A DNA stretch of 33,535 nucleotides from Synechococcales cyanobacterium S06. Lineage in GTDB: Bacteria > Cyanobacteriota > Cyanobacteriia > Cyanobacteriales > JAABRE01. Shown piece by piece: positions 857 to 31,570 of the stretch. The notes beneath the pieces are model-generated. The model ran no database searches, had not been told where the DNA came from, and was given only the letters and a program-made list of their open reading frames with translations. The translations under genes and the position numbers were made by a program. Location of the stretch: contig JAABRE010000052.1 in assembly GCA_011391125.1 (NCBI GenBank), positions 1-33,535 of the forward strand, in the 5' to 3' direction. Every line of letters begins with the position of its first letter. The first letter of the stretch is position 1.

Positions 857-2271
857 ATGTTTAAATTTAATTTGTTACTTAAAATTAGCTTAACTACTTT
901 ACTTTTATTGCCCGTAATTTTACAAGTAAAATCTGAAAAAGCTAGTAGTAATTTAGCTTTACCTACCCAAATAAAACCAACTTTAATTATTCAAAACCAA
1001 AAGGAACAAAAAGAGCTTCGCGTCGCTTTAGTTATCGGGAATTCTCAATATAAAATGAGTCCTTTAGCTAACCCTATTAATGATGCTAGTGATATGTAGA
1101 AGAATTTGGTTTTGAGGTAATAAACGTATTAGATGGTGATTTAATAAAGATGAATCAAGGTGTTAATGAATTTCAGCAAAAATTAGGCCCTGGAGTAGTA
1201 GGCTTATTTTTTTATGCTGGTCATGGAATGCAGGTTGATGGCGAAAATTATTTACTTCCTACTGATGCAACTTTACCAAAAAAAGATGCTATTAAAAATG
1301 AAACTATTTCTGTTAGTAGTGTGTTAAAAATAATGCAGAAAGCTAACACTAAAATGAATATAATTATTTTTGATGCTTGCCGCAATGATCCCTTTAAACG
1401 TGGTTGGGGAGAAGAACAAAATCGCAATTTTAGTTTAGGGGGTTTAGCTCCAGTTGATGCTAAAGTCGGTTCATTAATCGCTTATTCCACCGCTCCGGGG
1501 GATTATGCGGCCGATGGTTATGGCCGCAACAGTCCTTATACTGAACAATTAAAACAGCAAATTAAAACCCCTAATCTCGACATTTACATTATGTTTAGAA
1601 ATGTTCGAGCTGGAGTTTATCAAGAAACCAAAGGCAATCAAATTCCTTGGGTTTCCGTGTCAATTACTAATAGTTTCGCTTTTAATTCTACACAAAGTAA
1701 CAATAATAATAAGCCAATAATTAATACTTCTGAACCTACTAATAATTTACCTGTAATTGTGGCAGCTAGGGCGATTTCTCCTAGTAATATGTATGAACGT
1801 TTAGAGTATTTTTTGAGTAATAAACAATGGCAAAAAGCCGATCAACAAACTTGGGAAATTATGAGACAAGTTAGCAGTTTTGGTCGTAAAATTTCCCTTG
1901 ATTCTAATGAAATAAATAATTTTTCCTGTCAAGATTTAACTAAAATTGATCAGCTTTGGTTAAAACATTCTAATAATAGATTTGGTTTAAGTATCCAAGA
2001 GGGAATTTATCAAACTTTGGGTGGTAATAAGGATAAAAAATCCCTCCTAAAATTCCTTCGACAAATTGGTTGGCGAAGACTTAATAATAATCAAGAAGAA
2101 TATCTCAGTTATAATGAGTTAACTTTTTCTGAAAATGCCCCTCTTGGTCATTTTCCTACCACTGCTGGAATTGATGGTTTATCTAGTGTTGCTAGAAACT
2201 GGGCTTTATATACTACTGAATATGAGTCTTTTCTGACACATTTATTAGACAGGGTTGCTGTTTGTAAATAA
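857..2271 (+). pseudogene. secreted caspase-like protease fused to a GUN4 domain, frameshifted
   Basis: Two ORFs in different frames make one broken gene. The first (857-1099) has a Sec-type signal peptide (KISLTTLLLLPVILQV), then the first strand of a peptidase C14 caspase fold (RVALVIGNSQYK) and LANPINDASDM, and stops. Homology resumes in another frame at about 1099 (EEFGFEV) and runs to 2271. The downstream part carries the catalytic His in FFYAGHGMQ and the catalytic Cys in IIIFDACRND (residues 25 and 77 counted from the ATG at 1150). From about residue 213 to the end is a GUN4 domain (MYERLEYFL, ..CQDLTKIDQLWLKHS.NRFGLS.., GWRR, LTF..NAPLGHFP). Family members normally have some residues such as AKAL between DM and the EEFGF equivalent, so a deletion of about 10 nt near 1097 is likely. 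The SD AAAGGAA precedes 857. Confidence 0.85.
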
Positions 2272-6658: not shown

Positions 6659-8200
6659 TTAACCATGATAATCATTTCCTGAGCCATATTGCCAACTATC
6701 TAGGAAACGATGGTAGTAATATTGCTGCTCTGGAGACAAATTTTTGGCAACGGGTTTAAGCAGATTTCCTAATGGATATAAACCGGAATATAGACCTAAA
6801 TTAACATAATGAATTAACCAATCTGCTAATACAGGTATTCCCACTTGGGGGAGTAAAGGTAAGACAAATTTAGGATTAACTAAGGGGAGAGTTTTTGATA
6901 GTGCTCCCAACTGAATTACATCTTGTAAAAACGGTTTTAAGACCTCATCTCCGAGATTATTCATAACAGTAAATACAGCACTCATTAAGTTATTAATTTG
7001 ATTGGGATCAGCTTTTTGGTTAATTTTAATACTCATAGTTTTTTGAAATAACCAAGTAACAGAAATATTCGGTTGATAGGGTTGTAACAAAGCTAAATCC
7101 TGTTTATTTAATAGGTCTAATTTTAACGCTTCATTTATCCCTAAACTTAACCTTTTCAAGTGTCTGACCATTGCACCAAAACCACCAAAACTAACAGGAG
7201 ACTGACTTCCACTACTATCACCTAGTGGTAAAATACGATTCCAAGGCATTTTTAAAGGACTGTCTTTATAGGAAGGAAAAAAGCCAAATAAAAACCGTTC
7301 AAATTGTAACTTTTCTAAGGATATATTCTGATATTCTGGTAATAACCTGAGATATTCTTCTGTAAAAAATTCCAGACTAAATCGTTCAGGATTAGCATCT
7401 AAATAGGTAAATAAATAAGTAGTGCGTCCATCATTGGCGGGAAAAGCTTCCCAGAAATATTGGCACTGGTTTAAAATCGGGGTAAAAGAGGCAATTAAAT
7501 CTCCAGTGTCGTTGTTTTCAAAACCTTTAGCGCAACTGCCCACCACCAAACAAACTCCTTCGGGTTTTGCTCCTTTTCTGGCCTGTTTAGCCATGGGTGA
7601 AAAATGACCCATTGCATCAATTAATAACCTAGTTGTTAAGCTATTTTCTCCTAATTGGACTTTCACTCCATTATTATAAACTGTAGCACCATTAAAGTTA
7701 GTATTTTCCAGTAATTTTCCCCCGAAATCGAGAAATTTTTGCTTCAATTTTTCCAATAAATAAACTGGACTGATTCCGATATTTAAGACATCTTGAATCC
7801 ATAATTCATAACCTTGATGAAAACTAACCCTAGCTGGATTATATTCAGAAGCGATCGCCTGTTCAATTTCGGTTTCAGATAACAAATCCAACTCAAGAAA
7901 AACCTGTAATTCCTGACGGGAAATATTCCATTCTTGGTCCCTTCCGCGCAAAATTCCTCGTTCAATAATAGCCACTTTCCAACCTTGTAATTGCAAAGAA
8001 GTCGCAATTAAAATACCTAAAGTTCCACCACAAATACAAACATCAAAATCTAAACATTGTAAAGATTCATTACCTTGCTTGACAATTTCAGTAAATTGTG
8101 TATTATTATGGCGTAATTGTTGCCAAGAATAATCGGCATTTTTTAAACGGGAAAAAACGTCACCCGGAAGCTGAGATAAAATTTCTTGTGTTAATGACAT
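6659..8200 (-). CDS. cruP: CruP, lycopene-cyclase-like flavoprotein
   Basis: The 513-residue protein has an N-terminal FAD-binding Rossmann motif (DVCICGGTLGILIATSL..., Asp53-Leu69, with the ribose-binding Glu80 in AIIERG). Next come blocks that I associate with the CruA/CruP lycopene cyclase family: RDQEWNISRQEL, YNPARVSFHQGYELWI, LLIDAMGHFSPMAKQARKG, YFWEAFP.NDGRTTYLFTY and GDSSGSQSPVSFGGFGAMVRHLKRL. Length and the GGTLG start suit CruP rather than the longer CruA. CruP is reported to influence carotenoid epoxide accumulation in plants; its reaction is uncertain. It is divergent from the ndbB-like gene with 79 nt between starts. Confidence 0.88.
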   Translation of the reverse strand: MSLTQEILSQLPGDVFSRLKNADYSWQQLRHNNTQFTEIVKQGNESLQCLDFDVCICGGTLGILIATSLQLQGWKVAIIERGILRGRDQEWNISRQELQVFLELDLLSETEIEQAIASEYNPARVSFHQGYELWIQDVLNIGISPVYLLEKLKQKFLDFGGKLLENTNFNGATVYNNGVKVQLGENSLTTRLLIDAMGHFSPMAKQARKGAKPEGVCLVVGSCAKGFENNDTGDLIASFTPILNQCQYFWEAFPANDGRTTYLFTYLDANPERFSLEFFTEEYLRLLPEYQNISLEKLQFERFLFGFFPSYKDSPLKMPWNRILPLGDSSGSQSPVSFGGFGAMVRHLKRLSLGINEALKLDLLNKQDLALLQPYQPNISVTWLFQKTMSIKINQKADPNQINNLMSAVFTVMNNLGDEVLKPFLQDVIQLGALSKTLPLVNPKFVLPLLPQVGIPVLADWLIHYVNLGLYSGLYPLGNLLKPVAKNLSPEQQYYYHRFLDSWQYGSGNDYHG

Positions 8201-8279
8201 TTTCTTAATTATTGGATATTTTAAATAATATTAAATAAAAGGTTAATGTATAAATTATATAACACAAAGGAGTTTGTGA

Positions 8280-9455
8280 ATGAAGAAACGGATTTGCATT
8301 TTAGGAGGAGGATTTGGTGGACTTTATACAAGTTTAGGGTTACAAAAGTTTATTAAACAAAATCCTGATTACGAAGTCATTTTGATTGATCAAAATGATC
8401 ATTTATTATTTACTCCCCTGCTTTATGAATTGATTACCAACGAGTTAGAAGATTGGGAAATTGCGCCTAATTTTCAGAAATTGTTAGAAAATACGGGGAT
8501 TAAATTTTATCAAGATCTAATCAAGAATCTTGACTTAAAAAATCGAGAAATAGAGCTAGAAAATGGAGGAAAACTTAATTATGATTGTTTAGTTTTAACA
8601 GTTGGTCGGGAAGTTCGTTTAAATGGATTACCAGGAGTTAAGGAATTTACTTTTCCGTTTAGAACATTAGAAGATGTGCATAATTTAAAGGATAAACTAA
8701 CATCATTGCTCAATTCTGAAGTAGATAAAATTAAAGTTAGTATTATTGGAGGAGGTCCTAGTGGAGTAGAATTAGCGGGAAAAATAGCTGATAAATTAGA
8801 AAAACGCGGTGATGTCCATTTAATTACTAGGGATAATCGCATCCTAAGACACTTTACTGATGCAACCCGACAAAGTGCCATTAATGCTTTAAATAAACGA
8901 GGAGTTGCGATTAGTTTGAATACCAATATTAAAGAAATTAATTCTGATTTTATTACCTTTCAACAAGGAGCAGAAATTGGTATTTTCCCAACTAATTTGG
9001 TGATTTGGACTACGGGAACACAGGCAAGAAAATTAATCAATAATTTAGGAGCTTGTAATAATATCAGTCAATTGGTTTCTCTGGCAACATTACAATTACC
9101 TGATTATCCAGAAGTATTTGCTTTTGGGGATGTGGCGGAGGTTATTGATGGAAATAACAAAGTAGTCCCAGCGATGGCTCAAGCAACATATCAACAGGCC
9201 AATTTTGCTGCTAAAAATGTAGTGCGTTTTTTGCAGGGAAAAAAGTTAGGAAAGTTTCGTTATTTACACTTAGGAGAAATGTTAGCTTTAGGGAAAAATG
9301 ATTCAGCAATCACTAGCTTTGGTTTTCATTTACATGGGGGTTTTGCTAACCTAATTAGACGTTTAGTTTATCTGGAAAGAATGCCCACTTTTAAACATCG
9401 TTTTCAAGTGTTATCATTGTGGTTTAAAAAATTATTTAAAAGAGGCAAAAAATGA
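8280..9455 (+). CDS. ndbB: type-2 NAD(P)H:quinone dehydrogenase, NdbB/NDC1-like
   Basis: A 391-residue two-dinucleotide-fold flavoprotein. The FAD motif is RICILGGGFGGLYTSLGL (GGGFGG at 9-14) and the NAD(P) motif is SIIGGGPSGVELAGKIA (GGGPSG at 157-162). The late FAD contact is PEVFAFGDVAEV. The block LLYELITNELEDWEIAP closely resembles the Synechocystis NdbB type rather than NdbA or NdbC. NdbB/NDC1 reduces demethylphylloquinone before its methylation in vitamin K1 synthesis (established in Synechocystis and Arabidopsis). The basic C-terminus (WFKKLFKRGKK) may bind membrane. It overlaps the next gene by 4 nt (ATGA), so the two are translationally coupled. Confidence 0.85.
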   Translation: MKKRICILGGGFGGLYTSLGLQKFIKQNPDYEVILIDQNDHLLFTPLLYELITNELEDWEIAPNFQKLLENTGIKFYQDLIKNLDLKNREIELENGGKLNYDCLVLTVGREVRLNGLPGVKEFTFPFRTLEDVHNLKDKLTSLLNSEVDKIKVSIIGGGPSGVELAGKIADKLEKRGDVHLITRDNRILRHFTDATRQSAINALNKRGVAISLNTNIKEINSDFITFQQGAEIGIFPTNLVIWTTGTQARKLINNLGACNNISQLVSLATLQLPDYPEVFAFGDVAEVIDGNNKVVPAMAQATYQQANFAAKNVVRFLQGKKLGKFRYLHLGEMLALGKNDSAITSFGFHLHGGFANLIRRLVYLERMPTFKHRFQVLSLWFKKLFKRGKK

Positions 9456-11302
9456 AAAAAATACAGCAACTTTTCGGGTTAGATTTGCGATCTCTAGCCC
9501 TATTTAGAATGGGTTTAGCTTTAATAATAATCACAGATTTAATAATTCGTTTTCAAGACTTAAACGTTTTTTATACCGATCAAGGAGTCTTACCAAGAAG
9601 TGCTTTAATTAGTGAAGGTATTTTAAACCCATTATACTGGTCAATTTACTTCATTAATGGACAACCTTTAATAGTGGGAATGCTATTTATTTTCGCTATT
9701 TTCATGGCCTTTTGTATGTTAATAGGTTATCGAACCCGGTTAGCGACAATTGCATCTTGGGCCATGATTATTTCCTTACATAATCGTAATACAGCCTTAC
9801 TTTTTGCGGGTGATGATGTTTTACGCGCCTTACTATTTTGGGCGATGTTTTTACCATTAGGAGCGACATATTCCCTAGATAGTGCGTTAAATTCATCGAA
9901 AGAGAAAATACCGAAAAATATCCTCACGGGGGCAACTGTTGCTTTAGTCATTCAACAATGTTTTTTTTACATGATTTCGGTATTATTTAAAGGTAGTAGT
10001 ACCATCTGGTTTCCTGAAGGTACTGCAGTATATTATGCCTTTCATTTTGACCAATATGCTAAACCAGCAACTGCTTTTTTTGCGAATGCTCCTGAGCTAT
10101 TATTAAAATTAGCAACCTATGCAACTTTAATAGTGGAATTAATCGGACCATTATTTTTATTTATCCCCGTTTATACCACATTTTTTAGAACGGCTACGGT
10201 CATAACTTTTATCCTATTACATTTGTGTTTTGATGTAACTTTTGAAATCGGACTTTTTCCCTTACTAAGTGTTTCGAGTTGGTTAGCATATATTCCAACG
10301 CCAATTTGGGATTATTTCGAGGATAAAATAAGTACAGAAGAAAGGCAAGGATTAACAATTTATTATGATGCAGATTGTGGATTTTGCAAAAAAGTTGTCC
10401 ATATATTAAGGACTTTTTTAATCTTACCAAAAACCCCCTTATTAAAAGCACAGGAAGATGAATCAATATATGCAGATATGGAGGCAAATAATTCTTGGGT
10501 GGTCTTAGATTGGCAGGGAAATCGACGTTTCAAATGGGAAGCATTAATTTATGTAATTAGTTTGTCTCCCGTGTTTAAATTTCTAGTCCCAATTATGAGA
10601 ATACCTGTGTTATTTTCCCTGGGGACAAAATTCTATGAAACCGTCGCCACCAATCGTAAAATGGCGGGAATATTTACCAAACCATTAAAATTTCGCCCTT
10701 TAGAAGTGAAACCTTTTCTACTTTTAAATATTCTGACTTTATTCCTAATAACAGCGTCTTTTTTCTGGAATATCAGGAGTTTTGCTCAGTTAAAATATAA
10801 CCGTAGAACCGAGCAGCCAAAAGATGCAATTACCTTTCTTTACCACCTATTTAATCGTCGAACAATTAACAGTTTTGATTGGATTAGTCGAGTCACAAGA
10901 TTAGATCAATCGTGGAGTATTTTTGCACCTGCTCCGCCGCGGGATGATGGTTGGCACATTATCCAAGGAACATTAAAAGATGGCACCGAAGTGGATGTTT
11001 TATATGACAAAGAAGGTCCCGTAAATTGGGAAAAACCGAGTATAAAAGACCGGAATAAATTGTATAAAAATATGCAATGGCGGACCTATTTTATTAACCT
11101 AAATCGTAGTATTGGTGACACACTTTATCCCTATTATGCGAATTATTTGTGTCGGAATTGGAACGCAAATAATCAAGGCGAAAAACAGTTAGACAAATTC
11201 ACCATTTATTTTATGGATGAACGTACAGTACCCCCCGGAGAAGAGCAAAAAGTAGAGAAAAAAACAGATTGGGAGCAAGATTGTTCCCCGAAAAAAGAAT
11301 AA
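9452..11302 (+). CDS. HTTM-domain membrane protein with DCC thiol-disulfide domain
   Basis: A 616-residue polytopic membrane protein. Residues ~10-285 form an HTTM domain, the family that includes vitamin-K-dependent gamma-carboxylase: SLALFRMGLALIIITDL, YTDQGVLPR, then hydrophobic helices. The segment MISVLFKGSSTIWFPEGTA puts Lys180 where the carboxylase family has its essential lysine region (my alignment by eye). Residues ~300-410 form a DCC domain with the redox motif DADCGFC (Cys309, Cys312). A further helix at ~430-450 is followed by a soluble tail (WSIFAPAPPRDDGWHIIQG) typical of bacterial HTTM proteins. The product's substrate is unknown. It is coupled to the quinone reductase gene by a 4-nt overlap. 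Confidence 0.85.
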   Translation: MKKIQQLFGLDLRSLALFRMGLALIIITDLIIRFQDLNVFYTDQGVLPRSALISEGILNPLYWSIYFINGQPLIVGMLFIFAIFMAFCMLIGYRTRLATIASWAMIISLHNRNTALLFAGDDVLRALLFWAMFLPLGATYSLDSALNSSKEKIPKNILTGATVALVIQQCFFYMISVLFKGSSTIWFPEGTAVYYAFHFDQYAKPATAFFANAPELLLKLATYATLIVELIGPLFLFIPVYTTFFRTATVITFILLHLCFDVTFEIGLFPLLSVSSWLAYIPTPIWDYFEDKISTEERQGLTIYYDADCGFCKKVVHILRTFLILPKTPLLKAQEDESIYADMEANNSWVVLDWQGNRRFKWEALIYVISLSPVFKFLVPIMRIPVLFSLGTKFYETVATNRKMAGIFTKPLKFRPLEVKPFLLLNILTLFLITASFFWNIRSFAQLKYNRRTEQPKDAITFLYHLFNRRTINSFDWISRVTRLDQSWSIFAPAPPRDDGWHIIQGTLKDGTEVDVLYDKEGPVNWEKPSIKDRNKLYKNMQWRTYFINLNRSIGDTLYPYYANYLCRNWNANNQGEKQLDKFTIYFMDERTVPPGEEQKVEKKTDWEQDCSPKKE

Positions 11303-24797: not shown

Positions 24798-25580
24798 TTA
24801 CTCCATAAACCAACCATGACTGACAACCAGGGACTGTCCTGTTAACGCATTGGAAGGAAAAGCAGCGAAAAATAAAGTAGCTTCAGCCACATCTTCAAGA
24901 GTGGTAAATTCGCCGTCAACGGTTTCTTTAAGCATGACATTTTTAATCACTTCTGCTTCAGAAATACCTAATGCTAGAGCTTGTTCAGGAATTTGTTTGT
25001 CAACAAGGGGTGTGCGAACAAAACCCGGACAGATTACATTGGCGTGTACGCCATATTTAGCTCCTTCCTTAGCTACCACCTTAGCGAGTCCGATCAAACC
25101 ATGTTTTGCGGTGACATAAGGTGCTTTGAGCATGGACGCTTCTTTTGAGTGTACCGAACCCATGTAAATAACGCTACCACCGCGTCCTGATTTATACATA
25201 TAAGGTAAGCAGGCTTTTGTGGTCAAAAAAGCGCCGTCAAGATGAATAGCGAGCATTTTTTTCCAGTCAGCATAACTGAAGTCTTCTAGGGGATGGACAA
25301 TTTGGATTCCGGCGTTACTTACGAGGATATCAACACCACCGAAAGCCTCTACCACTGCACTTACACCAGCGTTAACCGCTTCTTCGTTGGTCACGTCCAT
25401 AGCAACACCGATCGCCTTACCACCGTGCGCGCAAATTTCGGCAGCAGTGGCATTTGCAGAGTCTAAATTGAGATCGGCGATCGCCACTTTAGCCCCTTCA
25501 CGGGCGAAGGTTTGGGCAATTCCTTTACCAATACCACTAGCTGCTCCGGTAATAATCGCCGATTTATCTTGTAATTTCAT
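24798..25580 (-). CDS. bdhA: 3-hydroxybutyrate dehydrogenase (SDR)
   Basis: A 260-residue short-chain dehydrogenase. The NAD motif is [13 protein letters not shown] (10-22), with NAG at 89-91 and catalytic Ser142, Tyr155 and Lys159 (GSVHS.., PYVTAKHG). The block [20 protein letters not shown], the [14 protein letters not shown] region and [18 protein letters not shown] are typical of bacterial D-3-hydroxybutyrate dehydrogenase, which oxidises 3-hydroxybutyrate to acetoacetate with NAD. It starts 12 nt after the stop of the acetoacetate decarboxylase gene, so the two consecutive pathway enzymes are co-transcribed. Confidence 0.9.
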
Positions 25581-25592
25581 CGAATTTTCCTC

Positions 25593-26342
25593 TTATTTAG
25601 CTAAATAATCGTGAACAACAGTACCTAAACCTAAAGTGAGATCAGAGACAATATGGACACCGGATATTACTTCCAAAACAGGAAGGGAAGCTACAGGGGC
25701 TAGAGCGTGATGGAATAACTCTAGGGCAGCCGGACCTTCCCAAGCTCCCTTAACGGTGATATCCTCACAGAAATAACGCACAATCTCACAAATACGGGGA
25801 GTTCCATCCACATGGGGGATAATTTTTAACAGATAATTAGGGGAAGCTAAAGATTCGCTGGTTTTTTCCAGAGATAAAGCCCGATGTTTATAGCCCATGG
25901 TGGCGACTGCAACGGGTAATGAACCCATTTTGAGGACACCGACTAAGGTATCTTTTTCGATAGTGAGGATAGGAGAGGCTAATTTTTTAGGAAAACCCCA
26001 TAATTCTCGTCCTCCAGCAATGGGAGGTTCGCAATCGAGATACATTGCATGAACATAACTCCCGGGTTTACCTTGAAAACTTACTGGTATAACCTGGCCA
26101 CTTTCGGTATAATCACCAAAACCGGTGGAATCGGGCATACGGATAAATTCATATTTAACTAGGGGTTCGCTAAATTCTAGGGGTGCGGGAATAACGGCTC
26201 GCAGTGCATCGGGATCGCTGCGATAGGTAATAATAAAAAACTCACGGTTAACAAAGCGATAGGGACCAGGGGGAAATGCCGGACTGGTCAAAGGCATCGC
26301 AAAAGCCTTGGATATAACTTCATTTTCATTCATAAAAGTCAC
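25593..26342 (-). CDS. adc: acetoacetate decarboxylase
   Basis: A 249-residue acetoacetate decarboxylase. The Schiff-base lysine is Lys119 in [15 protein letters not shown], with Lys120 next to it, matching the Lys pair whose proximity lowers the pKa in the clostridial enzyme. Other family blocks are [29 protein letters not shown] and the final [14 protein letters not shown]. It converts acetoacetate to acetone and CO2. It lies 12 nt upstream of bdhA in the same direction. The frame starts MTFMNEN; either Met is possible. Confidence 0.93.
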
Positions 26343-26421
26343 TCCATTTTTAATTTTAGATTTTAGACATTGAATAATTAGGACGATGCTCTTAATTAAA
26401 TGATGCTAGTGTTTTGTGACA

Positions 26422-26526
26422 TATAGCATTTTTAGTTGATATTTTGCCTCTTTTTCCCCCTCTCCCTTTGGGATGAGGGGGGTAGGGGGTGAGGGAGTAT
26501 ATAACACTTAATCAGAAAATGCTATA
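26422..26526. mobile_element. possible MITE with TATAGCATTTT termini
   Basis: TATAGCATTTT (26422-26432) and its exact reverse complement AAAATGCTATA (26516-26526) bound 105 bp in the gap between the patatin and adc genes. The interior holds the G-rich dispersed string at ~26455-26498. I see no clear target duplication, so it may be an old or composite element. Confidence 0.45.
26455..26498. repeat. G-rich/C-rich dispersed repeat
   Basis: CCCCCTCTCCCTTTGGGATG continues into GAGGGGGGTAGGGGGTGAGGG. Related strings are at 2322-2361 and 33417-33440. The two halves can pair into a hairpin. Confidence 0.6.
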
Positions 26527-26555
26527 AATTAAAGCAAAGTGCATCGCCCTACAAG

Positions 26556-26576
26556 TATCAACTATTAACTATTAAC
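26556..26576. repeat. short heptamer array, 3 units (TATCAAC, TATTAAC, TATTAAC)
   Basis: Three heptamers of the same family as 3611-3673 overlap the stop codon of the patatin gene at 26572-26574. Confidence 0.85.
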
Positions 26577-27660
26577 GATTCCCTAATCTCGCTTCGATAA
26601 ACTTTCTTCCTTGTTTTTCGCCATCTTGAATGAGTATTTGGATATTTTCAGGAGAACGATCCAATTTACCTTCATAAGTCAAACTTTTTGCCAATTCCTC
26701 AGACATTTCAATCATCGGGATGTGGTAAGGTTGATCGGGATCTTCAGAGAATAATTTAGGGATTTTAATCGGTTCTTTAACCTCAGTTTCTGCCATAAAT
26801 TCTTCCCTAAATGCTCCTCTCAAAAGTGCTATATTCAGATCTTCGATCGCCCGTAAACTTTGGAATAGGGAAATATTACCCTCTAATTGATTACGGCGAT
26901 CGCTGATATCATTAGCCATAACGGGAATTTTATTGTTTGTGGTGGGATTAATCTTAATTACCCAAATTTCTTGGGGAATATTATTAATACCCACATAATC
27001 ACGCTTAATTAAGGGTTGAATCGGCGGATTATCGGAAAAAAGACCATCCCAATAGGCCATACCATCAATTTCGACAGCGGGGAAAAGATTAGGGACACAA
27101 GCAGAAGCGAGGATATGTTCAAGTCTGATCGGTTCGTGGTAGGAATTAAATCTGTGCAATCTTCCCGTAAGAATATTACACGCTCCTAAGATCAAGATTG
27201 GGGCTTCTGGTGAAGCACTCCAAGTTGCTAATTCTGAGACATCAATATGGGCTTTCAGTAATTCCTCAAGATCGGTAAAGCGACTCCGCAAACCTTGTGT
27301 ACCTAGAGAAGTCGCCATTTTAAAGAATGGTGAGGAAGGACTGATATTATATTGAGGAATTAAGCCTAAACTGGTTAATTCTAGTGCTTTAATGGCAAAA
27401 TCATTGAAAAAACGCTCTTGAGGGGTTTGGGCCGTATTATCTTCCCAGAAGTCAATTAAGCGTTTCCACAAACATGAATCGCCTTTTTTGAAAGCGTACC
27501 AGAGGAAAAAAGCACAAATTGCTCCTCCTGATGTGCCACTTAAGCTGACAATGTTAAAATTTTCTTGAATTTTGCTTTCAGATAGGGCTTTGAGTACACC
27601 CGCTGTAAAAGCAGTTTGACTACCGCCACCTTGAGTGGCGATCGCAACTTTTGGTTTCAT
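26572..27660 (-). CDS. patatin-like phospholipase / acyl hydrolase
   Basis: The 362-residue protein has the patatin Ser-Asp dyad: oxyanion glycines in ATQGGGSQTAF (11-13), nucleophile Ser44 in LSGTSGGAICAFF, and Asp205 in YWDGLFSDNPP. It is probably cytoplasmic, as no signal peptide is seen. Patatin-like proteins hydrolyse acyl esters. Relatives in proteobacteria lie beside acetoacetate decarboxylase and hydroxybutyrate dehydrogenase genes, where a role in lipid or polyhydroxybutyrate turnover is suspected but, as far as I know, not proven. The stop codon lies within a short heptamer array. The start is 40 nt downstream of the membrane protein gene. Confidence 0.9.
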   Translation of the reverse strand: MKPKVAIATQGGGSQTAFTAGVLKALSESKIQENFNIVSLSGTSGGAICAFFLWYAFKKGDSCLWKRLIDFWEDNTAQTPQERFFNDFAIKALELTSLGLIPQYNISPSSPFFKMATSLGTQGLRSRFTDLEELLKAHIDVSELATWSASPEAPILILGACNILTGRLHRFNSYHEPIRLEHILASACVPNLFPAVEIDGMAYWDGLFSDNPPIQPLIKRDYVGINNIPQEIWVIKINPTTNNKIPVMANDISDRRNQLEGNISLFQSLRAIEDLNIALLRGAFREEFMAETEVKEPIKIPKLFSEDPDQPYHIPMIEMSEELAKSLTYEGKLDRSPENIQILIQDGEKQGRKFIEARLGNR

Positions 27661-27700
27661 AGTAAAATTTCTAACCTCTCAGTGAAAATTTGTCTAACAT

Positions 27701-28363
27701 CTAACTACCGAGAATATTGATCGCACGCGCAGCTATCGCAGCGATATTGACAAGGGAGATACTACTTTCTGTCATCATCAGCAGTTTAGCTCGTTGGGTT
27801 AGGGGTAAAGTATCAGTGGGACTAAAGGCTGTAGCTGTGGTAAATGATAGAAATAGATAATCTATAAAGGTTGGTTTCCAGTTGGGCATAATGTCTTCTG
27901 GCAGACTTGCTTGAGTAAAAATCCAATCAGGAGTTTGTTTGCTATTATGTAATCGAGCTTCGGGACCACCGACATCAATCTGCCAATAAAGTAACGAGAA
28001 TATCAGTACATTACTAATCCACAACGAAATACTCGAAGTCAGTAGATACAGACCGTCTATCGCTTTAGACCCCGTTACGATCTCTCTAATCAGTTCTCCT
28101 AGACCGATCAGAGTGGCTGTCCCCATTACGAGGCAAAAGAAAAGCATTACTACCCGTTCTACCCTTAACCAACGCTTTTTACCTCTTGTCCATCCCACCG
28201 CAAACATCGCTGCGAAAATAGTAATAATCTCAAGGTAGAGAAACCAAATTGGCAAAAGACGGAGGCGATCGGGCAGTACGCTGGTCAAACCCAATGCTAG
28301 GAAAATCGTCAGGGCAACAGGCCAGCGTGATTCGATGGCGCGTTCGGGAACTGGTTTAGACAT
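27701..28363 (-). CDS. integral membrane protein with channel-like pore segment
   Basis: A 220-residue protein with about five hydrophobic segments (~13-30, 38-57, 70-88, 105-128, 196-218). The C-terminal block FLSFTTATAFSPTDTLPLTQ (171-190), followed by a long hydrophobic helix, resembles in layout the pore loop and inner helix of two-TM potassium channels (SFVTLTTVGYGD-type). However, the filter triplet Gly-Tyr-Gly is absent (AFSPTD instead), so potassium selectivity cannot be assumed. I know no named family with certainty. It lies between the flavoprotein and patatin genes in the same direction, so a transport role for the island is a guess. Confidence 0.72.
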   Translation of the reverse strand: MSKPVPERAIESRWPVALTIFLALGLTSVLPDRLRLLPIWFLYLEIITIFAAMFAVGWTRGKKRWLRVERVVMLFFCLVMGTATLIGLGELIREIVTGSKAIDGLYLLTSSISLWISNVLIFSLLYWQIDVGGPEARLHNSKQTPDWIFTQASLPEDIMPNWKPTFIDYLFLSFTTATAFSPTDTLPLTQRAKLLMMTESSISLVNIAAIAARAINILGS

Positions 28364-28629: not shown

Positions 28630-30336
28630 CTAATACAAAGTTCCAGGAACGGTATCTTTGCGTAGGAATACAGACTGCGACATCATACCACCGGAGATGT
28701 TGCTCGCTTGGAAGCCGTGCTGCATCAAGATACGAACGGCATAATGCGCGCGCTGGCCTGAGCGACAGAACACCAAGATTTGGCGATCGCGGGGCAGTTG
28801 ATCCAGATTGTCGCGCAAATGCACCAGATCAATGTTCAAGGCACCGGGAACGCTTTCAACTGCCAACTCTTCGGCGTGACGTACATCCAACAAGAAACCA
28901 TCGCCAATCTGATCCCAATGGGTGATTGGCATATCACCCCGAAGAATATTGGCGGCCACCATACCAGCAAAATTAACGGGAGACTTGGCACTACCAAACT
29001 GGGGAGCGTAAGTTAACTCAGTTTCTTCTAAATCATAAACCGTAGCTCCAAACTGAATCGCCATGGCAAAGGCATCAATGCGCTTATCAACGCCATCCTG
29101 ACCTAAAGCTTGAGCACCCAAGACTCGTCCGTCTGATTTACGGAAAATACATTTAATTGCCAGCATTTTAGCTCCTGGATAATAGCCAGCATGGGAGTTC
29201 GGATAAATATAAACCTTTTCGTAATCAGTATCGCCTAAGCGTTTTAGGGTTTTTTCATTGATACCAGTCCAAGCGCAAGCTGCCCCAAAGAGTCCGATAA
29301 TAGCCGTACCCTGTGTACCCCGATAGCGAGAATCCCTACCCGCAATTACATCGGCTGCAATTCTACCTTGACGGTTAGCAGGACCGGCTAAGGCAATCAG
29401 GGACCATTCACCCGTCATAAAGTCCTTAACCTCGATCGCATCACCTACAGCAAAGATATCTGGTTGATTGGTACGCATTTGGTCATCCACACGAATACCA
29501 CCTCGTTGACCAATCTCGATTCCTGCCGTCTTCGCCAATTCAGTTTCAGGACGTACCCCAATCCCCAAAACTACAATATCAGTTGGATATACTTCGCCCG
29601 CTTTGGTTACAACTTCGAGAGCACCCTTAACATTCTTCTGTATGCTTGCAGGTTCAGTATTTAGGAGCAGATGAATACCTTTTTCAGTAATAAAACGCTC
29701 ACAGTAACGAGCCATTTCTGGATCAATCGGTCCAATAATCTGAGAATCACGTTGGATTAAAGTTACATCTAACCCTAAATGAAGCAAATTTTCAGCCATT
29801 TCCAGACCAATAAAGCCACCACCAATCACCACAGCACGCTTTTTGATCACCGTCTGAAATCCGGTATAGGATTCCATACCTGATAAGGATTGATTCGCTC
29901 CTAGCCACTCCTTGATTGCTATGACATCAGGCACAGTTCTTACTGAAAAGACACCGGGTAAATCAATTCCTGGCAAATTGGGACGAATGGGAGCAGCACC
30001 AGGAGATAATACCAACTTATCATAGGATTCCGTAATCACCTCACCAGTCAGTGTATTTCGCAGATCTATTGTTTTCTGTTCGGGTGCAATCTTAATTGCT
30101 TCACAGTTAACCCGCGCATCAATGGCAAACTGCCCCTGAAAAGTTTTAACATCCGATACTAACAAACTTGACTGTTTTTCAATTAAACCTCCCACATAGT
30201 AAGGTAATCCACAATTGGCGTAGGAAACGTAGGGACCGCGTTCTACCATGATGATTTGAGCTGTTTCATCTAAACGACGCAGTCGTGCTGCACAGGATGC
30301 ACCACCAGCGACTCCACCAACAATAATCACTTTCAT
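28630..30336 (-). CDS. CoA-disulfide reductase-like flavoprotein with C-terminal rhodanese domain
   Basis: A 568-residue fusion. Residues ~1-445 are a class-III pyridine nucleotide-disulfide reductase: FAD motif VIIVGGVAGGASCAARLRRL, redox Cys42 in SYANCGLPYYVGG, NAD(P) motif VVIGGGFIGLEMAENL, late FAD motif PDIFAVGDAIEV, and the dimerisation domain (FGAACAWTGINEKTLK). Residues ~465-568 are a rhodanese domain (GFLLDVRHAEEL, active-site Cys524 in LVFCRSGQRAHYA). This is the CoADR-RHD architecture, linked in other bacteria to CoA disulfide or persulfide reduction. It heads the island on the minus strand and is divergent from the AraC regulator, which may control it. Confidence 0.9.
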   Translation of the reverse strand: MKVIIVGGVAGGASCAARLRRLDETAQIIMVERGPYVSYANCGLPYYVGGLIEKQSSLLVSDVKTFQGQFAIDARVNCEAIKIAPEQKTIDLRNTLTGEVITESYDKLVLSPGAAPIRPNLPGIDLPGVFSVRTVPDVIAIKEWLGANQSLSGMESYTGFQTVIKKRAVVIGGGFIGLEMAENLLHLGLDVTLIQRDSQIIGPIDPEMARYCERFITEKGIHLLLNTEPASIQKNVKGALEVVTKAGEVYPTDIVVLGIGVRPETELAKTAGIEIGQRGGIRVDDQMRTNQPDIFAVGDAIEVKDFMTGEWSLIALAGPANRQGRIAADVIAGRDSRYRGTQGTAIIGLFGAACAWTGINEKTLKRLGDTDYEKVYIYPNSHAGYYPGAKMLAIKCIFRKSDGRVLGAQALGQDGVDKRIDAFAMAIQFGATVYDLEETELTYAPQFGSAKSPVNFAGMVAANILRGDMPITHWDQIGDGFLLDVRHAEELAVESVPGALNIDLVHLRDNLDQLPRDRQILVFCRSGQRAHYAVRILMQHGFQASNISGGMMSQSVFLRKDTVPGTLY

Positions 30337-30562: not shown

Positions 30563-31570
30563 ATGAATACCCTACCTTTGGTTCGAGCAAATGCACTTTT
30601 GCCCATGATGCGATTTTTGAATCAGGTTGGTGCGCCTACCCAGCAATTTCTACTCCAAACCAAGCTACCTAGTGCTGTTTTAGATCAACCGGAAGCATTG
30701 ATGTCACTATATCAGACGCATAACTTTATCGAATTAGCTGCTCGCAGTGAAGGGATAGAATTACTCAGTGTGTTGGCGAGTCAGCAACTTCAGATTGCTG
30801 ATATCGGTCTATTTGGCAAAGTTTTGAGCCAATCTTTAACTGGTTATGATCTGTTGCAGACCATAGTTGCCTTACTGACAAAGACTTATAGCTCAGGAGT
30901 GCGAGTTTGGCTAACCCAAGATCATGAACGCGTCTGGTTTAACCATCAATACCTGAATACAGGTAATCTAGGACATCAACAGTTTCAGTATTATGCTTGT
31001 CTGCTGCACCTAAGAGTGATGCGGTTAATCATTGGCTCTCAATGGTATCCAACGGATTTGCATTTTCAAGCGGGAAAACTTCAAGGATTATCGCAAATTG
31101 ACTTATTTTCCGGAACACGAGTTCGTTTTAACCAACCCCATAATGCGATCGCTTTGCCTAAATCCATTTTATACCTACCGATTAAACAACGGGAAAACGT
31201 TGATCAGTCCGATTCGCCAGACTTATATGAACGATTACGCTCATCATCCCCTGCGATTAACCTTGTGGAATCACTACGCCAATTTCTTCAATTCCAGTTG
31301 CCGAGTGGTCATGGCCAAATAGAAATGGCAGCAGAGTCCGCCGGAATCAGCGTGCGAACACTGCAAAGAAGGCTGGCGCTTGAAGGTCTCAGCTATTCTC
31401 GACTTGTTGACCAGGTGCGCTTCCATTTAGCGGTTAACAGACTAAAAGAGCCAACCATGCAGTTAGGGGATATTGCCGGTGAACTCGGCTACACTAAGCA
31501 GGGCAATTTCACACGGGCATTTCAACGCTGGTCGGGGGTAACACCGAGTGAATATCGTTGCTTGCTGTAA
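30563..31570 (+). CDS. AraC-family transcriptional regulator
   Basis: The 335-residue protein has an N-terminal ~200-residue ligand-binding domain of the Arabinose_bd-like type found in regulators such as OruR (LVRANALLPMMRFLNQVG at the start). The C-terminal AraC helix-turn-helix pair is MAAESAGISVRTLQRRLALEG (first HTH) and LGDIAGELGYTKQGNFTRAFQRWSGVTPSEYR (second, with the family's F-R-A-F-x-R-W-x-G-x-T-P-x-x-Y signature). The ligand is unknown. Divergence from the flavoprotein gene at the edge of the ketone-body cluster suggests that it regulates this island. Its composition is GC-richer than the genes to its right. Confidence 0.93.
   Translation: MNTLPLVRANALLPMMRFLNQVGAPTQQFLLQTKLPSAVLDQPEALMSLYQTHNFIELAARSEGIELLSVLASQQLQIADIGLFGKVLSQSLTGYDLLQTIVALLTKTYSSGVRVWLTQDHERVWFNHQYLNTGNLGHQQFQYYACLLHLRVMRLIIGSQWYPTDLHFQAGKLQGLSQIDLFSGTRVRFNQPHNAIALPKSILYLPIKQRENVDQSDSPDLYERLRSSSPAINLVESLRQFLQFQLPSGHGQIEMAAESAGISVRTLQRRLALEGLSYSRLVDQVRFHLAVNRLKEPTMQLGDIAGELGYTKQGNFTRAFQRWSGVTPSEYRCLL

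Follow-up and report, generated by a model that had tools for sequence, protein, structure and literature searches.

The stretch of DNA considered here, referred to as the window, is a 33,535-nucleotide contig of Synechococcales cyanobacterium S06 (JAABRE010000052.1, assembly GCA_011391125.1) in which two forward-strand genes lie head to tail. The upstream gene encodes an NDH-2-type NAD(P)H:quinone oxidoreductase, here called NDH2 (391 residues; 8280..9455), and the downstream gene encodes a membrane protein, HTTM-DCC (616 residues; 9452..11302), in which an HTTM-type transmembrane region is followed by a DCC1-like domain. A previous sequence-only reading of this DNA had described two open reading frames (ORFs) that overlap by 4 nucleotides, and this is indeed how they are arranged, with the sequence ATGA holding both the stop of NDH2 and the start of HTTM-DCC. 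Both ORFs are genuine genes, since their relatives in the clusters described below are 52-61% identical to the window protein for HTTM-DCC and 42-52% identical for NDH2. A gap of 79 nucleotides (8201..8279), within which the promoter of the pair presumably lies, separates them from a divergently oriented gene for an FAD oxidoreductase. When the pair is compared across genomes its neighbourhood proves to be conserved, whereas the overlap is confined to the window genome: the other twelve NDH2-HTTM loci of the 13 compared are without it (L006 and L048 being treated as the same contig and counted once), and in L007 other ORFs stand between the two genes.

The pair is part of a larger gene set. 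Around relatives of HTTM-DCC the recurrent order is that of a fatty-acid-AMP ligase (FAAL), an acyl-CoA dehydrogenase (ACAD), an acyl carrier protein (ACP), a DltB-like MBOAT protein (MBOAT1), an SGNH-fold protein (SGNH1), NDH2 and HTTM-DCC, and in some loci the last of these is followed by MBOAT2, SGNH2 and GT2 genes. Six genomes (G189, G074, G229, G305, G326 and G060) have all seven genes in a single run, and FAAL, ACAD, ACP and MBOAT1 lie together in L082. The window's own genome carries the set on separate contigs, with FAAL-ACAD-ACP-MBOAT1-SGNH1 on contig C55, NDH2-HTTM-DCC on C116 (the window) and MBOAT2-SGNH2 on C137. The sequence-only reading had taken the pair as the system; the linkage of the two genes is borne out, but the pair is only a fragment, and the FAAL-ACAD-ACP-MBOAT-SGNH pathway to which it belongs had been missed.

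The distribution of the set was followed across the phylum, each search covering the same 386 genomes and absence meaning no match by that search. With a limit of E up to 0.001, HTTM-DCC was found in 28 genomes, and in 17 of them the match is close (E < 1e-200); the other 11 were set aside before counting, and comprise one decayed locus (G383), one divergent and interrupted copy (G213), one paralogue (G143) and eight genomes outside the window's class. ACAD, at E up to 1e-60, occurs in 18 genomes, namely the 17 and a distant match at 46% identity in G227, and SGNH1, at E up to 1e-20, likewise occurs in 18, the 17 and the decayed G383. FAAL, sought in 19 genomes, has a match of at least 61% identity in 17/17; G383 and G213 gave no match at E up to 1e-100. 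The observations on MBOAT1 and ACP come from the loci that were fetched. The 17 genomes span 11 genera, with seven of them belonging to genus g22, and carriers known by name are, among others, Sphaerospermopsis aphanizomenoides and metagenome-assembled genomes of Okeania; genera g6, g26 and g31 each hold members with the set and members in which it is absent. The hypergeometric probability of such agreement, uncorrected for phylogeny in either case, is ~5e-30 by genome (HTTM against SGNH1, 17 intact each) and 1.5e-15 by genus (HTTM against ACAD). In G383 (L060) short broken ORFs of FAAL, ACAD, MBOAT1, SGNH1, NDH2 and HTTM-DCC are found at one place, with no ACP recognised, as if the set had been lost as a unit.

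Linkage gives the same picture. An NDH2 paralogue lies beside a set gene in 17/17 genomes: it adjoins HTTM-DCC in seven (G000, G060, G074, G189, G229, G305 and G326, the last corresponding to locus L006 on contig C221 and counted once), which represent 7 of the 11 genera, SGNH1 in eight (G111 and the seven g22 genomes) and MBOAT1 in two (G105 and G141). The proposed coupling of a reductase to HTTM-DCC is supported, with the two as neighbours in 7/17 genomes. With eight SGNH1 and two MBOAT1 neighbours against seven HTTM neighbours, the genetic link of NDH2 to the pathway is no weaker than its link to HTTM. In G105 and G141 NDH2 runs with ACAD, ACP and MBOAT1 and the HTTM gene is elsewhere; there HTTM-DCC adjoins SGNH1, and in G111 it adjoins MBOAT2. 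At all six named loci the two genes share a strand and NDH2 lies on the upstream side, L007 with its intervening ORFs included.

The domain content of the set points to the handling of an acyl chain. The ligase matches a fatty-acid-AMP ligase model at 448 bits and DltA at 105 bits, its top match being an NRPS/PKS (non-ribosomal peptide synthetase/polyketide synthase) model at 508 bits, and as it resembles fatty-acid-AMP ligases more than DltA, D-alanine is argued against as its substrate. ACAD carries three acyl-CoA dehydrogenase Pfam domains and ACP was identified as a carrier protein by domain search. No electron-transfer flavoprotein (ETF) alpha subunit (PF00766) was found in the window's own genome, in a search whose control matched in 10/14 genomes, so that ACAD needs another electron acceptor. 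The sole NCBIfam match of MBOAT1 is to DltB (TIGR04091) at 177.5 bits, with the equivalog cut-off at 375, and its match to DltB in the PDB scores 94.8 bits. SGNH1 gave no Pfam or NCBIfam match, the DltD profile included; its motifs GSG(A/V)H, with the serine, and ADTH(Y/H)HL, with DxxH, are kept in 14/14 rows (L006 and L048 being the same contig), its structural model (pTM 0.64) resembles SGNH hydrolases with Z ~13, and, judged by eye, it is probably anchored in the membrane by an N-terminal helix. The MBOAT2-SGNH2 genes were considered as a core module and rejected in favour of an accessory role, as SGNH2, present in 20/386 genomes, occurs in only 4 of the 17. At the SGNH1 position in Okeania there is a sulfotransferase gene (L002:3323-4243 and L007:550-1545, the Pfam match coming from L002), which suggests that the product of the set may be sulfated there.

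The window NDH2 is a flavoprotein with two nucleotide-binding stretches and is similar to solved NDH-2 enzymes, matching PF07992 (Pyr_redox_2) at 135 bits and PDB 4nwz at 121 bits over residues 2-366. It has GPSG at the second nucleotide site and, at residues 300-305, the sequence AQATYQ, an instance of AQxxxQ, which we take to be the quinone-site motif of NDH-2; this motif is kept in 19/19 cluster NDH2 rows and also in the widespread copies with which they were compared. For that comparison 44 rows were picked from the fetched loci and placed in a tree, which has a very distant outgroup and a long end branch for the window (0.91). Eighteen of its rows, all of the same order and class, form a widespread clade supported at 100/100, which includes the copy on contig C99 of the window's own genome; the window NDH2 falls outside this clade, as do the other copies linked to clusters. 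The two kinds are separated by 22 diagnostic columns, for instance one at the second nucleotide site where tyrosine (18/18 widespread) is replaced by proline (18/19 cluster). Six further copies outside the widespread clade come from loci at which no HTTM-DCC was seen (L117, L118, L119, L122, L129 and L130), and because such second copies occur in genomes that are without a close HTTM-DCC this type of NDH2 is not exclusive to the pathway. The copy most similar to that of the window (55%) is one of these, in G318 (L117:9041-10258), where it stands beside a GT2 gene.

This placement bears on the description of the enzyme as NdbB-like in the sequence-only reading. NdbB is reported for Synechocystis (slr1743) and Anabaena (alr4094) (PMC12923008). 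The widespread clade is probably NdbB, as we infer from a tree that held no labelled NdbB sequence, and on that footing the description is not supported, with the window NDH2 lying outside the clade and differing from it in the diagnostic columns.

In HTTM-DCC five features can be placed on the forward strand. The HTTM-type transmembrane region (residues ~1-290; 9452..10321) is defined by a match to SdpB below cut-off, by PF05090 in relatives and by hydropathy, and contains Lys180 (codon 9989..9991). The DCC1-like domain (residues 303-403; 10358..10660) is assigned by PF04134, at 31 bits against a cut-off of 27.8, and by its CxxC pair, here CGFC (10376..10387; Cys309 at 10376-10378 and Cys312 at 10385-10387). 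Separate aligned blocks define a C-terminal domain (residues 474-612; 10871..11287) with Cys567 (11150-11152) and Cys611 (11282-11284), which occurs also in HTTM proteins that have no DCC domain. In the Pfam profile search PF05090 (HTTM) was not reported for the window protein itself; TIGR04033 (SdpB) aligns to residues 16-281 at 27.2 bits, under its cut-off, and LMF1 is likewise below threshold. Among 27 aligned relatives, PF05090 is matched by seven (E up to 1, the best 1.2e-10), SdpB by 16 and HvfX, weakly, by four, and the plain HTTM proteins L072 and L077, which are above the PF05090 cut-off, align to the window protein with E ~1e-15 in a small local database. Because its relatives match the HTTM profile, the window protein is placed in the HTTM superfamily.

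The conserved residues that the sequence-only reading had singled out, Lys180 and the Cys309/Cys312 pair, are both retained, Lys180 in 39/41 aligned proteins and 22/22 cluster proteins (of which seven are from genus g22 and three from Okeania), and CxxC in all 22 cluster members and in 25/41 overall. Cys567 and Cys611 are each found in 21/22 cluster members and 36/41 sequences. Three paralogues from the same order that lie outside the cluster (G105:C7, G141:C3 at 2.25 Mb, and G143) keep Lys180 and the DCC domain and are without CxxC; since Lys180 is thus kept beyond the cluster it is no marker of a carboxylase. Paralogues of this kind, with Lys180 and no CxxC in the DCC domain, are located at L057:8016-9833, L058:7940-9757 and L059:7972-9756. 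CxxC was tried as a strict marker of the pathway and dropped, as L061, L062 and L063, all outside the cluster, carry it too. A quick HTTM tree places the cluster proteins on one side of a branch, with an SH-aLRT support of only 79.

The catalytic lysine of GGCX, the vitamin-K-dependent gamma-carboxylase, is K218. The mapping of Lys180 onto GGCX was given up, as a profile of 27 HTTM-DCC proteins gave no GGCX match among PDB sequences, a plain HTTM protein used as an intermediate query found nothing but a weak match to an unrelated protein, and an AlphaFold2 (AF2) model built from seven sequences (pLDDT 46.5) was too poor for a fold search. A scan of viral_contigs for a deeper HTTM-DCC alignment confirmed 0/22 candidate stretches.

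A second arrangement involving HTTM proteins is seen in family f38, outside the window's class, where 3 of the 11 loci with an HTTM region (L061, L062 and L067) hold proteins of one family, predicted to be quinone-interacting oxidoreductases different from NDH2. The domains identified in the L061 member are Nitrate_red_gam, Fe4S4 and CCG, and it is similar to quinone-interacting oxidoreductases of the QmoC/HdrD type; the gene overlaps that of the HTTM protein in L062 and is one small ORF away from it in L061 and L067. This arrangement supports, and does not prove, a quinol-dependent role for HTTM proteins. The f38 genomes in question are 2.1-2.3 Mb in size, TPR-type proteins are encoded nearby and the HTTM genes are in tandem in L061 and L062.

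The gene set itself is well supported by the joint occurrence, linkage and joint decay of its genes, by their domains and by conserved residues, and from it we infer the chemistry of the pathway. FAAL would adenylate a free fatty acid and load it onto ACP, and ACAD would add a double bond to the acyl chain with an acceptor other than the usual type of ETF. MBOAT1 would then carry the acyl group to the far side of the membrane, where SGNH1 would help attach it to an exoplasmic acceptor, either a glycan or a glycolipid, roles that are patterned on the handling of D-alanine by DltA, DltC, DltB and DltD. In the redox part, NDH2 would reduce a membrane quinone with NAD(P)H, HTTM-DCC would spend the quinol in an oxidative step that depends on Lys180 and modifies the acyl chain or its acceptor by oxygenation or carboxylation, and the dithiol of the DCC domain would reset either the quinone product or the enzyme. 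With FAAL, ACAD, ACP, MBOAT and SGNH as partners, the acyl chain or its acceptor is a likelier substrate than protein glutamate. Taken as a whole, the proposal that the pair serves as the redox module of a pathway for acyl modification in cyanobacteria, Dlt-like in its architecture, and that HTTM-DCC uses quinol, is given a probability of about 0.5. Its parts differ in strength: that the pair belongs to the FAAL-ACAD-ACP-MBOAT-SGNH pathway is highly likely, and the passage of quinol to HTTM is a tentative step, with odds a little short of even. It is unlikely, in its most specific form, that an analogue of the vitamin K cycle is built into a Dlt-like acyl-transfer machine, with NDH2 supplying hydroquinone, the HTTM region using oxygen and Lys180 to carboxylate or oxygenate the acyl chain or acceptor at the membrane, and the DCC dithiol taking the place of VKOR in resetting the oxidised quinone, so as to yield acylated glycans or lipids of a new class on the cyanobacterial surface.

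To our knowledge, most bacterial HTTM proteins lack an assigned function. The near-perfect co-occurrence and repeated linkage reported here tie one of them to defined acyl-handling enzymes, which opens its role to genetic test, and if HTTM-DCC does act on an acyl chain with quinol then vitamin-K-type chemistry would extend to the tailoring of lipids or glycans.

Each part of the system has a known counterpart. The Dlt D-alanylation system of Gram-positive bacteria (DltA-DltB-DltC-DltD) shares with it an AMP-forming ligase, a carrier protein, a DltB-like MBOAT and an SGNH-fold protein, and the roles of DltA-C (PMC12662226) are taken as precedent for the transfer step. Here, however, the ligase is a FAAL, and ACAD, NDH2 and HTTM-DCC are added, with MBOAT1 falling under the DltB equivalog cut-off and SGNH1 giving no DltD profile match. 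The grouping of FAAL, ACAD and ACP is the same as in the starter cassettes of the lipopeptides rotihibin and ramoplanin: the rotihibin cluster has a fatty acyl-AMP ligase, two acyl-CoA dehydrogenases and an ACP together, proposed as the source of an unsaturated acyl chain and taken here as precedent for desaturation by ACAD, and ramoplanin is cited there as similar (PMC8552735). Unlike these, the six contiguous clusters bring MBOAT and SGNH partners, and the interval from FAAL to HTTM is free of NRPS and PKS genes in all six. With GGCX the shared elements are the HTTM superfamily, a conserved membrane lysine and a quinone reductase nearby; the window protein, for which carboxylation is a possible activity, differs in having no detectable sequence match to solved GGCX, a fused DCC domain and another gene context. 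Law et al. (2018) reportedly described a bacterial orthologue of the vitamin-K-dependent gamma-carboxylase in the biosynthesis of the antibiotic malonomycin. NDH2 itself has the NDH-2 fold and quinone-site motif of NdbB/NDC1 and differs in lying outside the widespread and probably NdbB clade of cyanobacteria to which the C99 copy belongs. FSP1, an animal NAD(P)H:quinone reductase with a role in vitamin K metabolism, is a further NDH-2-like flavoprotein, but its PDB matches to the window NDH2 score only ~51 bits, far below bacterial NDH-2 structures (121 bits). The combination would be a form of Dlt-like acyl transfer to which a redox module of quinone and HTTM-DCC has been joined; no published account of the seven-gene set was met with in the open-licence literature, and its novelty is claimed on that search.

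The main rival to a quinol-using HTTM-DCC is that NDH2 might instead be the electron partner of ACAD, delivering electrons to quinone, with HTTM-DCC exchanging thiols and disulfides on the pathway's exoplasmic proteins. The missing ETF alpha, the run of NDH2 with ACAD, ACP and MBOAT1 in G105 and G141, and the conserved Cys567 and Cys611 alongside a fused CxxC domain all fit this division of labour. Yet NDH2 retains both nucleotide-binding stretches of a pyridine-nucleotide enzyme and AQxxxQ, it neighbours HTTM-DCC in 7 genomes of 7 genera, and in G213 the pair occurs with no ACAD, and the explanation is considered rather unlikely. A related view, also unlikely and somewhat less favoured by the evidence, has HTTM-DCC as a non-enzymic membrane scaffold or quinone-binding relay, akin to DoxX/SdpB, which passes electrons from quinol to the DCC dithiol and so keeps an exoplasmic partner, SGNH1 or MBOAT1, active. 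It would account for SdpB (16/27) being the closest named profile, with HvfX weakly matched (4/27), and for the retention of CxxC, within the window's order, in cluster proteins and its absence from the three outside paralogues; against it, no redox step is known to be required by SGNH1 or MBOAT1, and a lysine so widely conserved in the membrane region suggests catalysis.

The form closest to the sequence-only reading, in which an NdbB-type reductase serves a vitamin-K-carboxylase-like enzyme that carboxylates protein glutamate, draws on the adjacency of NDH2 and HTTM and on Lys180, but is made very improbable by the position of NDH2 outside the widespread clade and by the constant partners FAAL, ACAD and SGNH1 (with ACP and MBOAT1 beside them in the inspected loci), which point to an acyl substrate, the genomes not having been screened systematically for a protein substrate. 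That the adjacency in the window arose by chance, NDH2 being a general respiratory dehydrogenase, is scarcely credible: the 4-nucleotide overlap is unique to the window among 13 loci and second NDH2 copies do exist in genomes that have no pathway, but the idea is contradicted by an NDH2 paralogue beside the gene set in 17/17 genomes.

Several observations weigh against the preferred reading of the pair as a quinol-using redox module of the pathway. In the seven g22 genomes no cluster gene stands beside HTTM-DCC within contig reach, and in G213 an NDH2-HTTM pair (L063:6654-9275), with HTTM-DCC interrupted, is found with no matches to FAAL, ACAD or SGNH1, which makes it either a relic or a sign that NDH2 and HTTM form a unit of their own. 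The cluster NDH2s are not resolved as one clade in the 44-row tree, and extra copies from outside the widespread clade exist in genomes that have no close HTTM-DCC (G318, G101, G157, G261, G066 and G027). The CxxC of the three proteins outside the cluster (two from f38, L061 and L062, and L063 of G213), the other 8 of the 11 f38 HTTM loci, which have no neighbouring oxidoreductase, the profile-less SGNH1 and the sulfotransferase gene in its place in Okeania L002 count in the same direction. Homology between HTTM-DCC and the carboxylase is remote, to judge from the PDB search and the poor model; substrate, product and quinone binding are all predicted from genes, and NDH2 could serve ACAD instead.

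Other genes of the window were noted as well. The divergent FAD oxidoreductase upstream of NDH2 (6659-8200, reverse strand) has weak lycopene-cyclase-type matches, and we take it to be CruP-like; a 32% homologue lies near SGNH1-HTTM in G105, and as the family occurs in just these 2 of 44 clustered loci it was set aside as a member of the system. Convergent with HTTM-DCC is a gene for a metalloprotease of family NF038122 (11382-12473, reverse strand; 320.8 bits). Further away are a protein with caspase and GUN4 domains (1150-2271, forward strand), a single reverse-strand run of SDR, acetoacetate decarboxylase and patatin genes together with an ORF that has no Pfam match (24798-28363), an AraC-type regulator near that run (30563-31570), and a pyridine nucleotide-disulfide oxidoreductase with a rhodanese domain at its C-terminus (28630-30336, reverse strand).

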